The position numbers and the translations under genes were made by a program. Shown here piece after piece: positions 17,927-33,409 of a stretch of DNA of 33,409 bases (within the stretch, counting starts at the first letter, position 1; every line of letters begins with the position of its first letter). The notes below the pieces were generated by a model that was given only the letters and a program-made list of their open reading frames with translations, had not been told where the DNA came from and ran no database searches. Source of the stretch: Clostridia bacterium DTU065. Lineage in GTDB: Bacteria; Bacillota; DTU065. Where the stretch lies: assembly GCA_001512545.1 (NCBI GenBank), contig LFSI01000051.1:1-33409 (forward strand). Reading direction: 5' to 3'.

Positions 17927-19213
17927 GTGAAAGACACTTACGCTTATGAAACTGTCCTTGTAATCGACTTCGGTTCGCGGAAAAGCCAGGATGTTGCCCG
18001 CATGATCAGGAAACAGCACGTGTACAGCGAAGTCTTCTCCTACACCAAAGCTTTGGAAGCTATCAACGAGAAAAGCCCCAAAGGCATTGTGCTTTGTGAG
18101 GAAGGCAACGCAGACCTGGTTGCGTCACTGGAGAAAAAAGCCGAAGAACTCGGCATTCCAGTGCTTAAAACCACAGAAGAACTCGATCTGGATGCGCTGA
18201 ATACGTCTGAAGCGGAACAGACAGTTAAAGATTTTCTGTTTGTCAGATGCGGGGTGCAGGCATCCTGGACTATGAGTGCTTTTGTGGAAAAAGCTACAGA
18301 CGACATTAGGAAACAGGTCGGAGACGGAAAAGTTATCTGCGGTCTCAGCGGCGGCGTGGATTCGGCGGTAACTGCCCTTCTTGTCCACAAGGCTGTTGGA
18401 GATCAGCTGACCTGTATCTTTGTAGACCACGGATTGATGAGGCTTGGCGAGCCAGAAGAAGTTGTGAAGACCTTCAGAGACCGCTTCAACTTGAATATCG
18501 TCCATGTTGACGCTTCCGAGAGATTCCTCGCCCTTCTTGAAGGTGTCACCGATCCCGAACAGAAACGCAAGATCATCGGGACGGAATTCATTAGAGTATT
18601 CGAAGAAGAAGCCAAAAAGATCGGAGATGCTAAATTCTTAGCACAGGGTACCATCTACCCAGATGTGATCGAAAGCGGAATCGACTCTAAGGGTACGATC
18701 AAGAGCCATCACAACGTTGGCGGACTGCCCGAAGACATGAAGCTGGACCTTGTGGAGCCACTGCGCTTGCTCTTTAAGGATGAAGTTCGCGAGGTGGGTC
18801 TGGAACTGGGTATGCCAGAAAACCTGGTCTACAGACATCCCTTCCCCGGCCCCGGTCTTGCAGTGAGAGTCATAGGCGAGATCACCAAAGAGAGACTGGA
18901 TATCTTGCGGCAGGCTGACGCCATTTACATCGACGAAATCAGGAAACACGGCCTTTACAACGAAATCTGGCAGGCGTTCTGCATCCTGACCGACACCCGC
19001 ACTGTAGGAGTTTCCGGTGGTGAGCGGACGTATGCTTATATGCTTGGACTCAGAGCTGTAAACAGCACGGATGCCATGACGGCAGAATGGTATCCTTTCC
19101 CGCATGATGTTTTGCAGAAGATCTCCAGTAGGATTCTGCAAGAAGTACCGCAGGTAAACCGCGTCGTTTACGATGTCAGTTCAAAGCCACCTGCGACAAT
19201 CGAGTGGGAGTAA
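17927..19213 (+). CDS. guaA: GMP synthase-like protein with intact ATP-PPase/dimerisation domains and degenerate glutamine amidotransferase domain
   Basis: [66 protein letters not shown] and C-terminus [16 protein letters not shown] are GuaA hallmarks. The N-terminus keeps only [16 protein letters not shown]...PKGIVL...GIPVL. Confidence 0.93.
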
Positions 19214-29279: not shown

Positions 29280-29532
29280 ACTTCTGATTGGTTAACAGAT
29301 GAATGATTTGTAAAAATGGTCCATAAAAAGATTTCTTGCCTTATGTAAAACTTCCTTTTTTCTCTGACGAATTACAAACGAATCTAAAAAAAGAAGGACA
29401 TATCTAGAAAACGTAGAAATAGCTAAATACATATTAGTCCCGGTTAAGCCAGGACAACAAAGATGCGCATCGAGAAAGGGCTCTTCGATACCGAGGGGCC
29501 CGTTCTTCTTCCGGGAGAAAGGAGTTACTTTC

Positions 29533-30252
29533 GTGAAGCGGATTTTGCTTTTGATGGTAGTGTTTCTTTCTCTCCAGTGTAGTGCAGCATTGATCATTAC
29601 ACCGGCAATTGTTGAAGGTGTTGCTGGTGACTTCCCAGAGACCTTGACAGTGGATATCTACAACCAGGGGCAAGAAGCAGTTGTTTTGGAAGTAGAGGTG
29701 TTTCAGCTAAATCAAAAACCGAGCGGAGTGATTGCTCAGGGCCCGTCCGGCAATACTCGGCTTACTCCAGAAAGGACCACAGTGGTGGTAGAAGGAGCAG
29801 GCAAAGGTGAGATTAGCTTCGCCCGAGACAACGCTGAAGACTCTCTGTATGAGGTTGCGATAATCAAACAGACTAGTCTCACACAAAGCACGATCGCTCA
29901 AGCGATTGCGGTGCCTTTTATCTTGAAAAAGGGAAGCAGTGAGGTTTTCGCAAGCCTGGATAGCGTTAATTATGATCGGGAGACCGGGATTTGGGAAGTT
30001 ATCGTCAATAACAAGGGTCCGGAGCATTTCAAAGCCGGAATTACTCTTGCTGTGCAAGGAGAGTCGGGACCAAATACCGGCTCTGTCCAGGGGATCGTTC
30101 TTCCTGGAGTTGCCAGAGTATTTACATTGGAACTTCCGCTTGATTCCTCTAAAGGTGAGGGGCAGTTAGAGGTAGAGCTAGGAAACAGCAGCCAGACCTA
30201 CTGCATTCGCATCGATTCCAACGGCGCTGTAGAATGCATTGAGCAAAAATGA
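29533..30252 (+). CDS. Secreted PapD-like (pilus assembly chaperone-like) protein
   Basis: Signal peptide MKRILLLMVVFLSLQCSA; LIITPAIVEGVAGDFPETLTVDIYNQGQEAVVLEVEVFQL...LTPERTTVVVEGAGKGEISFARDNAEDSLYEVAIIKQ...QAIAVPFILKKGS matches the two-Ig chaperone layout; GTG start after aaaggag. Confidence 0.6.
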   Translation: MKRILLLMVVFLSLQCSAALIITPAIVEGVAGDFPETLTVDIYNQGQEAVVLEVEVFQLNQKPSGVIAQGPSGNTRLTPERTTVVVEGAGKGEISFARDNAEDSLYEVAIIKQTSLTQSTIAQAIAVPFILKKGSSEVFASLDSVNYDRETGIWEVIVNNKGPEHFKAGITLAVQGESGPNTGSVQGIVLPGVARVFTLELPLDSSKGEGQLEVELGNSSQTYCIRIDSNGAVECIEQK

Positions 30253-33206
30253 GTTTTGTTGTTGCAGTTGTCGTAGTTCTTTCTCTTTTGGGTTGTGCTT
30301 CGAGCGGAGAGCTGCTCGACATAAACCTATCAGGTGCCCCTAACAGCTGCGGCAGCCAGGTTGTCGAATCTATAAATCTTTTTGTAGATAGCGAGGGAGA
30401 CTGGGAACTTGCAGTATCGGCAGAAGAACTCCGAGCACAAGCCGAGGGCAGGGAGGTAGTGCTTCCTCCAGATAGGCTCAGTGTGAGGGTAAACGATGGG
30501 CCATGGGTTAAGCTTCAGAAGACCGGCCAACTTCTTCTATCTGGCAGCGGGCCTTCTGGAGTCAAGCTCGAATACCGCTTCGATCCCCTATGGGAAGACT
30601 CATGTCACGGAGAGGTATACGACACACGCCTAACATACGATCTTTCTTCCGGTAGGCTTTTTGCATCTTTCTGTTCACCAGGAAGCGCAGCTCCCGGAGA
30701 TAGTGTAAAGATCGTTTTTGCCCGTGAAAAGCTGGAAAAGGCAGAGGTCCAGGTAGAGAAAGATGGCGAGGTTGTATTTCAGCAAGCTGTAACTAATGCC
30801 AAACAGGTGCAGATCCCCACAAAACATCCCAACGGCACGTTTTGGGGAAGCGGCAGGTACGACTATCAAGTATCATCTTTTGGCGCGATGATAACCAAGG
30901 GAAGCTTCAGTGTTTGTGATCTACCTGAGCGGGGTGCGATCCGCAGTGCAACCGTAAAAAGCGAAGAAGAGATTCTATTTGTTGAAGGCTCTATAGTTCC
31001 CACCGCAGTTCAAGAAGGAAGTCGAGCGGTCCTGAGCCTTGACATCTGCAATCTCTCAGCTGAACCTTTGGAGGATATTTTGGTAGAGATCACGCTGCCT
31101 GAAGGTGCAGTTTGGTTTGCAAATAGCGAGCGTCGCTGGACAAAGGCATACAAGGAACTTGCTGGCTTGGAGAAGACCCATATTTCTTTGGACTTTGCCG
31201 TTTTTCCCTCTGCCAAAAAAACCGAATACGCTTGTGAGGTTAAAGTCAGCGTTACTCAAGACGATGGCAGGCATATCGTCGCGGCGAAGTCCTTGGCTTT
31301 CCAAGTAAAGCGAGGTCTACTCAGCGAGCCGGGAATAGTGGTAGGAGAGGTTCCCGACGCGGTTTATTTCGCGGATGGTACTAAAGTTGTGCCGCAAGAC
31401 GGATACTTTTCCCTGCAGCTAGAACCGGGAAGTTACGGCGTCTTGTTGGGAGACCGGCCGTACGTCCTAAACGTTTCGCGCTATTCCGAAAGGACAACCC
31501 TTGCAGTGGGAGATAGGAAAAAATTGGGGTTGATAGAGCTGAAAGCGGACATCTCTAAAAGCCCTGCTTTTGGGGTAAAAGGCTTTTGCCAGACAGACCA
31601 CCTGCAGCTTGCGTTTGTCTATCCGTACAAGAACTTCCAAAATTATCATCATACCTCTTACCCCTCATGGGGAACGAAACAGAGGATACTTGAAAGAACG
31701 CCCTGGCAGATGAACTTCTCTCGTGGCGACTTTCACTTCACCGCAGGCACAGTCTACTCTTCTTCTCCTTTAGAAGGCCCTTTTTCATCAGCTGCACTAG
31801 TGGGAGCAGAAGTGGGTCTGGCTCCGGGAAATGGCTTGCAGCTACAAGTCGTTGGTGGCTTTCATCTGGAAAAGCTGGTGGAGGAGGAGTTTTTGGCAGA
31901 CGGGACCACAGGTCCTTACTTGTTGAAGTCTGCACCGACTCAAGGTACGGTAAAGGTGATTGTAGAGTCTAGAAACAGCCGTAACCAGGTTGTGAAGACT
32001 TCCACTTGGGACTTCTATGTAGATGGGAAGTCCGTAAGACTAAAAAAGCCCCTAGCTGAAAGCGATCAGTTGGGTCTGAAAAACTACCTTGTTGTGTCCT
32101 ACGTTTCCGAGACAGAAAAACGCAGCGATAAGTTTTTTGGCGGAGGACACGTCGGATTTAGACAGGGTGAAAGCGGCCTTTTTCTCTACAGGCACCTGCA
32201 GGATGAAGGGATCATGGGCACTCTTAGCTACAAAGGCCTGACTATTGGTGGGAATCTGGGAAGCAACGCACAGGAAGTTTCTTTAGCGGTGACAGGTTCT
32301 ACTGCGCGCCATCAACTGCAGCTGGCTAGTACCGATGGAATTGGACTTGCTTATAAGTTCGATTACCATCATAATTTTGATGCAGGCATTTTGATATCCG
32401 GTAAAACTGGCGAAGCTATAAGTAAAGGTGAGTTGGCGTTCGATTTTGAAAACAGCCTGTTTAAAGCCACGCTGAGGCAAAAGCTGATTAAAGAAAAGGA
32501 ACAGACTAGAGACTTCTCTGGGGAGTACGCCTTTTACTCAGGCTCCCTGAAGTGGCCAAAAAACCTTACTTGGAGCATTAGCTTGGAAAAGTTTAACGGT
32601 AGAAAAAGCGAGAGCTTTTCCACCAGAATGATGTATAAGCTTCTAGGTTTTTCCGGATATGTCGAAGGAACTTGGAAGTTTGCCGATGGTAGACCTAGCG
32701 TTTTTGTAAACATCTCTCACGACAAAGTGCCACTTACTGTAAACGCAGAGTGGGAGCACATCAGCCCGGAGTTCTCCTTGCTGGAAGTCTGTTATGACAC
32801 GAAAGCGTTATGGACCAAACTTTCTCTCTGCGCCGAGAAGGCCGGGTTGAAGAGAACCCTTGGAGTAACCGTTGTGCCCAAAGAGGGGCTTCTGTATCTG
32901 GGGCTCTCTGGAGACGACTTGAAGACCGAGTACCACGTACCGCTTTCGAGGACCGGCTTCAAGTTATCTGTATCGGGGAATCTGGACACCAAGATCCTGG
33001 TAATGGCATCAGAGCTAGACGTCGCGCTTTCTCAGCGGAGCCACATTGGCGTTTCCGGGGCTTGGGAGTCTGGACTAAATAACAGTTTCCGGTTGGAGGG
33101 TTTCTATAGATTCAAGACTGACAACTTACAGCTAGAGACACGCCTTAGTGAAAGAGAGACCGGGGTTTATCTCACCTATCTCATTCCTCTTGGACGGAGT
33201 AGTTAG
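30249..33206 (+). CDS. Large lipobox-containing protein with N-terminal beta domains and predicted C-terminal beta-barrel (usher-like candidate)
   Basis: ATGA overlap with the upstream gene; lipobox SLLGCAS; Ig/DUF11-like region (GSIVPTAVQEGSRAVLSLDICNLSAEPLEDILVEITLPEGAVW), small DGYFSLQLEPGSYGVLL domain, then about 500 aa of alternating amphipathic strands. Confidence 0.6.
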   Translation: MSFVVAVVVVLSLLGCASSGELLDINLSGAPNSCGSQVVESINLFVDSEGDWELAVSAEELRAQAEGREVVLPPDRLSVRVNDGPWVKLQKTGQLLLSGSGPSGVKLEYRFDPLWEDSCHGEVYDTRLTYDLSSGRLFASFCSPGSAAPGDSVKIVFAREKLEKAEVQVEKDGEVVFQQAVTNAKQVQIPTKHPNGTFWGSGRYDYQVSSFGAMITKGSFSVCDLPERGAIRSATVKSEEEILFVEGSIVPTAVQEGSRAVLSLDICNLSAEPLEDILVEITLPEGAVWFANSERRWTKAYKELAGLEKTHISLDFAVFPSAKKTEYACEVKVSVTQDDGRHIVAAKSLAFQVKRGLLSEPGIVVGEVPDAVYFADGTKVVPQDGYFSLQLEPGSYGVLLGDRPYVLNVSRYSERTTLAVGDRKKLGLIELKADISKSPAFGVKGFCQTDHLQLAFVYPYKNFQNYHHTSYPSWGTKQRILERTPWQMNFSRGDFHFTAGTVYSSSPLEGPFSSAALVGAEVGLAPGNGLQLQVVGGFHLEKLVEEEFLADGTTGPYLLKSAPTQGTVKVIVESRNSRNQVVKTSTWDFYVDGKSVRLKKPLAESDQLGLKNYLVVSYVSETEKRSDKFFGGGHVGFRQGESGLFLYRHLQDEGIMGTLSYKGLTIGGNLGSNAQEVSLAVTGSTARHQLQLASTDGIGLAYKFDYHHNFDAGILISGKTGEAISKGELAFDFENSLFKATLRQKLIKEKEQTRDFSGEYAFYSGSLKWPKNLTWSISLEKFNGRKSESFSTRMMYKLLGFSGYVEGTWKFADGRPSVFVNISHDKVPLTVNAEWEHISPEFSLLEVCYDTKALWTKLSLCAEKAGLKRTLGVTVVPKEGLLYLGLSGDDLKTEYHVPLSRTGFKLSVSGNLDTKILVMASELDVALSQRSHIGVSGAWESGLNNSFRLEGFYRFKTDNLQLETRLSERETGVYLTYLIPLGRSS

Positions 33207-33272
33207 GGAGATTCCCAGCAGAAATCACTAACCGGCACTAATCAATCTCTAGAAAGGATGAGTTGTTAGGCA

Positions 33273-33409
33273 ATGAAAAAATGGTTGTTGTTAGCGGTTT
33301 TACTGTGCGTTGCGGTAGGAGTCAGAGCTGACTTTTTTACGCAGCAGGTTACAGCCAAGATCGAACCGATGATTCAGATCGAGTGGCCCGATGCGGAGTT
33401 CAGCTTTGG
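33273..33409 (+). CDS. Small secreted protein, truncated at window end (candidate structural subunit)
   Basis: ATG 33273; MKKWLLLAVLLCVAVGVRADFFTQQVTAKIEPMIQIEWPDAEFSF...: clear signal peptide; no stop before window end. Confidence 0.55.
   Translation, partial: MKKWLLLAVLLCVAVGVRADFFTQQVTAKIEPMIQIEWPDAEFSF

Follow-up and report, generated by a model that had tools for sequence, protein, structure and literature searches.

The question raised by this locus is whether three adjacent genes of a Clostridia bacterium (DTU065) encode a machinery that assembles surface fibres with a chaperone and an usher-like outer-membrane protein. The window analyzed, i.e., the whole stretch of 33,409 nucleotides, corresponds to C23:1-33409, part of a contig in a genome of 2.2 Mb, and the three genes, here named P1, P2 and P3, occupy the 3′ end of the window. 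A first-pass annotation of the sequence had proposed that they code for a chaperone, an outer-membrane pore and a subunit, in that order. The evidence gathered is in good agreement with a chaperone for P1 and a subunit for P3, while the membership of P2 in the usher family was not established. Taken together, it is likely that the locus is a chaperone–usher-like fibre assembly system of a diderm member of the Bacillota that bears genes for lipopolysaccharide (LPS). It would be a diverged variant of the chaperone–usher kind, missed by curated protein-family models.

Organization and recurrence of the P1-P2-P3 locus

P1 (positions 29533–30252, plus strand) starts with a GTG codon, preceded by a likely ribosome-binding site recognized by its sequence (AGGAG, 29520–29524, plus strand), and codes for a protein of 239 amino acids (aa). 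Its AlphaFold model, Foldseek matches and profile links point to a secreted periplasmic chaperone with tandem immunoglobulin (Ig)-like domains, similar to PapD and WxLIP. P2 (30249–33206, plus strand) codes for an exported, beta-rich protein of 985 aa, which sequence, conservation and model suggest as a putative outer-membrane assembly platform. P3 (33273–33409, plus strand) is the 5′ part of a pilin-like subunit gene, represented by 45 codons up to the window end. The three genes are consecutive, and each has a hydrophobic start resembling a signal peptide. The three open reading frames (ORFs) were confirmed, as was the overlap of P1 with P2, the stop of the former and the start of the latter sharing ATGA.

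P3 is broken by an assembly gap, a run of N at C23:33410-33467. Contig C23 extends to position 49935, and the inspection of this extension, where further subunit genes had been considered, recovered the continuation of P3 after the gap. The next gene codes for an alpha-mannosidase, and P3 is the only subunit gene of the locus. In relatives, P3 homologues are intact and amount to 165–169 aa.

The order P1-P2-P3 recurs in four further genomes of the same family, with P1 and P2 overlapping by 4–10 nucleotides, and with alpha-mannosidase and polysaccharide genes also 3′ of the trio. Three of the four are public metagenome-assembled genomes (Bacillota bacterium STF2_155, SL1-B34.1 and AS05jafATM_29); the trio of genome G003 is split across two contigs. 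The identities across relatives are 28–52% for P1, 40–51% for full-length P2 and 43–54% for P3 homologues. Among 300 genomes sampled from the phylum, full P2 homologues are limited to these five. Searches of P1, P2 and P3 against Pfam, NCBIfam and PDB sequences gave only noise, and a single-sequence scan of the genome contigs returned no match.

Relationship of P1 to pilus chaperones

The AlphaFold model of P1 (predicted local distance difference test, pLDDT, 77) had as its best PDB matches in Foldseek the structures of WxLIP of Enterococcus faecium (E 8e-11), with a WxLIP-WxL complex among the top WxLIP matches. They were followed by CsuC of the archaic Csu pathway (E 2e-9) and CfaA of the alternative pathway (E 3.5e-9), and similarity extended to CupB2, EcpB, Caf1M and other pilus chaperones, with template modelling (TM) scores of 0.41–0.60. 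Model and matches thus display in P1 the PapD-type pair of consecutive Ig-like domains.

Profile comparisons were run with hhalign, using reversed sequences as control. The P1 family aligned over its full length with the chaperones of two sister loci of the same genome (97.9%). When P1-like chaperones were pooled, they matched the E. coli FimC-type chaperones (94.4%, E 8e-8; reversed control 7%) and EcpB/EcpE (95.3%, E 2e-8; reversed control 0.1%). P1 was named by none of the sequence libraries searched. At the level of predicted fold and profile, P1 is a donor-strand-type chaperone, as the annotated PapD-like layout with two Ig domains had implied, and its binding of a subunit is predicted.

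The residues with which chaperones anchor the subunit C-terminus are Arg and Tyr in archaic and Arg and Lys in classical systems (PMC4654587). An Arg near the end of domain 1, found in four of the five P1 proteins, and R195, which lies within LPGxxR and is invariant in the family, are at most candidate equivalents of the CsuC residues.

Sister loci with usher homologues and the assignment of P3

The two sister loci, with genes for subunit, chaperone and usher, are located on contigs C41 (L067:6410-10810) and C9 (L084:2540-8838). In both, as in several other families, one or more subunit-like proteins, a chaperone and a protein of 930–1020 aa are encoded in that order. When fourteen such large proteins were compared jointly with seven E. 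coli ushers, the match extended through 676 colinear columns (95.3%, E 2e-8; reversed control 0.5%), and similarity takes in the region around the FimD plug. The Pfam Usher model found no match above its cut-off in 300 Bacillota genomes, its sole sub-threshold match being one of the sister ushers (G196:C90). These proteins close with two SdrD_B/CarboxypepD-like domains, where ushers have their C-terminal domains, and those of C41 and C9 carry a Cu_amine_oxidN1-like N-domain. Because of the usher profile match, the gene order and the sub-threshold Pfam match, the sister loci are, judged from sequence, divergent chaperone–usher loci, with ushers that are homologous to FimD but escape recognition by Pfam. 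In families f73 (L068:7248-8811), f62 (L069:7719-9267) and f49 (L074:9507-10986), a subunit gene lies next to a gene for a P1-like chaperone, but the pair has no usher-like neighbour, and the platform may be encoded elsewhere.

Concerning P3, all homologues display F-x-Q-x-V-x-A-x-I/V-x-P right after the signal peptide, with every second residue conserved, as a donor strand would require, and those of full length all finish with a short beta-like stretch whose last residue is Ile. The P3 family matched subunit-like proteins that other families encode beside P1-like chaperones (98.8% and 96.2%), the second value corresponding to the subunits of loci with detectable usher homologues; these sister-locus subunits, in turn, matched E. 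coli pilins weakly in profile comparison (66.3%, 152 columns). Classification of P3 as a WxL protein was discarded, as the W-x-L motifs are lacking. The donor-strand-like N-terminus and the links to usher-locus subunits support the annotated role of the third gene, and P3 is very likely the subunit of P1.

The closeness of P1 to WxLIP may be interpreted otherwise, with the locus as the equivalent, in a diderm, of the WxL cluster. A WxLIP-like P1 would then complete and hold a single P3 at the surface and P2 would be the outer-membrane anchor, with donor-strand complementation taking place and no fibre being formed. Besides the top fold matches of P1 to WxLIP structures and to the WxLIP-WxL complex, this would account for the presence of only one subunit gene and for a weak match to Pfam WxLIP_PGBD in five of 12 relatives (best E 0.001). 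It also fits the prediction that WxLIP inserts a strand into WxL and so completes the WxL sandwich (PMC10599100), an arrangement that, by analogy, would be akin to donor-strand complementation. Nevertheless, this interpretation is unlikely: inspection showed neither a C-terminal transmembrane helix in P1 nor a double W-x-L motif in P3, the alternating conserved residues of the N-terminal extension of P3 are those expected for polymerisation, and the sister loci contain real usher homologues.

Domain structure of P2 and the question of the barrel

P2 starts with a pilin-like domain (about aa 20–140; 30306–30668, plus strand), recognized with hhalign. Profiles pooled from the N-domains of P2, of UshW (a related protein type of 1294–1554 aa) and of a stand-alone 198-aa protein of genome G264 matched pilin-like subunits (97.0%, E 1e-10; reversed control 0.2%), so this annotated domain is real. 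Pooling was needed for the link, since the P2 N-domain alone gave a non-significant 0.8% against the P3 family. The stand-alone homologue is encoded among the subunit genes of G264 (L034:9803-10399), which suggests that P2 arose through the fusion of a subunit with a platform. As the P2 N-domain is devoid of an N-terminal donor-strand extension, it could accept a strand but not donate one.

The N-domain is followed by an E-set-like segment, an Ig/CARDB/NEW3-like domain (about aa 243–355; 30975–31313, plus strand; model pLDDT 60–80), in favour of which there is a weak NPCBM_assoc match in the G001 homologue, and a conserved PGSYG segment. Relatives carry about 75 residues more, a SpaA/CarboxypepD-like segment near aa 233, that are absent from the P2 of the window.

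The C-terminal half (about aa 430–985; 31536–33206, plus strand) is a predicted outer-membrane beta-barrel region, proposed from low-confidence strands, composition and residue alternation. Within P2, conservation is highest in these 555 residues, which are barrel-like in their aromatic content of 11.8% and low aliphatic content. Composition and hydrophobic alternation fit a barrel, but sugar-binding proteins and Ig domains score alike on single measures. Six predicted strands precede a conserved ADGTTGPF...DFYVD segment (about aa 547–622; 31887–32114, plus strand), a possible plug-like insert according to conservation and model, shared with UshW at only 34% probability. About twenty-two further strands are predicted after it, an order reminiscent of ushers but no more than suggestive at a pLDDT of less than 50. 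P2 stops at the last predicted strands, with no domain after the beta-rich half.

It is worth noting that "usher-like" is applied to P2 as a functional inference, because its place among the genes, its composition and the predicted order of its strands are compatible with an outer-membrane platform; it is not a family assignment, and P2 is not filed in the usher family. P2 shares its operon with a chaperone and a subunit, as ushers do. In contrast, it gave no match in Pfam or PDB, and it lacks the usher N-terminal domain and the usher C-terminal domains. A barrel in the C-terminal half is plausible from the prediction, and P2 is probably the outer-membrane platform in view of its position, composition and conservation, an unusual one and possibly non-homologous to ushers.

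Two other assignments of P2 were rejected. The SLLGC motif, annotated as a lipobox, is confined to this genome and its Cys is not conserved, relatives having no Cys there, so P2 is not considered a lipoprotein and the motif is not a family trait. A carbonic-anhydrase match (E 0.07) was taken as due to chance.

The same data on P2 bear on a second alternative, in which P2 would be a large surface adhesin or a secreted beta-rich protein, with P1 as chaperone of P2, of P3 or of both, and the outer membrane would be crossed by another export route. The undemonstrated barrel, the position of the pilin-like and Ig-like domains ahead of the rest and the lack of homology to known ushers are compatible with this view. 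It is rather improbable, however, since the C-terminal part is barrel-like in its composition, rich in aromatic and low in aliphatic residues, and is under the strongest conservation, and since the same gene position in the sister loci is occupied by usher homologues.

Evidence for a diderm host

Omp85 and LpxC are encoded in the same genome, both on contig C4, so it seems likely, from gene content, that the host is a diderm with an LPS-type outer membrane. Omp85 was above cut-off in 77 of the 300 phylum genomes. P1-like chaperones, counted at E values up to 0.01, occurred in 33 genomes, and all of these but one (32/33) had Omp85, with an odds ratio of 158 and a p value of 1e-20 (8e-18 without the family of the window). 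The genomes are related, so the p values overstate independence, but the association itself is clear. These results support a diderm host.

Proposed mechanism and points against it

In the chaperone–usher-like reading, P1, P2 and P3 would be exported via Sec, as their signal peptides suggest. The tandem-Ig P1, whose fold is supported, would bind P3 and lend it a beta-strand. The N-terminal extension of P3, the pattern of which is evident in the family, could afterwards take over, in the subunit next to it, the position of the strand lent by the chaperone, giving a polymer by donor-strand exchange. The C-terminal half of P2 would lie in the outer membrane, where P2 would receive the chaperone–subunit complexes and let the fibre out. 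The pilin-like N-domain of P2 might accept a strand from P1 or P3, as a docking site or as the first acceptor.

Several observations weigh against this proposal. No barrel model was obtained, the AlphaFold pLDDT of P2 being below 50 over aa 382–985; the Foldseek list of P2 (complement, arrestin) was set aside as uninformative, as it reflects the generic similarity of long Ig chains; and a beta-signal motif at the P2 end was discarded as evidence, because 17 of 198 background ORFs have it as well and the genome's own Omp85 is devoid of it in that form. Profile comparison detected no similarity of P2 to FimD, EcpC or the divergent ushers of its own genome. The direct profile match of P3 to E. 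coli pilins was not significant. Neither was that of P1 alone to FimC (8.5%, hhalign), the link going via the sister chaperones, but this low score means little because the FimC-type and EcpB/E chaperones, accepted relatives, reach only 6% by the same method. The locus has a single subunit gene and no obvious tip adhesin. Finally, WxLIP, the best fold match of P1, is not known to build fibres.

Neighbouring genes and other features of the window

A sugar-binding protein, glycoside hydrolases and a polysaccharide-biosynthesis gene are encoded on either side of the trio, but it is very improbable that P1, P2 and P3 are unrelated secreted beta-sandwich proteins within a carbohydrate-metabolism operon, since those genes only flank the trio, whose start is separately coupled and whose order is conserved, and since P1 and P3 have specific homology to chaperones and to usher-locus subunits, respectively.

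Elsewhere in the window, positions 17927–19213 code for a GuaA-like GMP synthase of just 428 aa, whose N-terminal glutaminase part is short and seems degenerate, and positions 730–2460 for a 576-aa protein in which repeated helix-hairpin-helix/alpha-CTD-like units are linked to a sigma-region-4-like segment.

Comparison with known systems

The archaic chaperone–usher pathway has been described from Proteobacteria, Cyanobacteria and Deinococcus-Thermus (PMC4654587). In the open papers searched, subscription papers not being covered, no chaperone–usher system was found described for Bacillota, with Firmicutes, Negativicutes, Halanaerobiales and Limnochordia as the groups considered. With diverged chaperone–usher-like loci present in diderm Bacillota, the known range of the pathway would grow by one diderm lineage, and hypotheses on where the pathway originated and how it relates to the WxL/WxLIP system of Gram-positives would become testable. 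We put forward, tentatively and with more doubt than confidence, that P2 represents a new class of outer-membrane platform, not descended from FimD and with a built-in pilin-like acceptor of the first strand, and that its chaperone belongs to a lineage between the WxLIP of monoderm Bacillota and the PapD of Gram-negatives. If so, one ancestral donor-strand chaperone would have been kept in both envelope types. Provided that it forms a barrel, P2 would represent a second way of making the platform.

Compared to the archaic and alternative pathways (CsuC/CsuD/CsuA-B; CfaA; EcpB/EcpC/EcpA), the locus is alike in the tandem-Ig P1, with CsuC and CfaA as best matches among chaperone pathways, in the donor-strand-like N-terminal extension of P3, in the three-gene core and in the diderm host. 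It differs in its Bacillota host and in P2, which has no Pfam Usher match, begins with a pilin-like N-domain and has nothing after the barrel-like half.

Ushers of the FimD/PapC type (PF00577) form a 24-stranded outer-membrane barrel with a plug between strands 6 and 7. P2 resembles them in its operon place, in its large, predicted beta-rich C-terminal half and, at low confidence, in having some six predicted strands ahead of a plug-like segment; it is unlike them in sequence, in profile and in the domains at both ends.

With the WxL cluster of monoderm Bacillota, composed of WxLIP (DUF916-DUF3324) and WxL proteins, the locus has in common the fold of P1, closest to that of WxLIP. On the other hand, WxLIP carries a membrane helix at its C-terminus and has WxL domains as its partners, whereas P1 is without the helix and P3 without the WxL motifs, and the P1-P3 locus includes, in P2, a candidate for the outer membrane.

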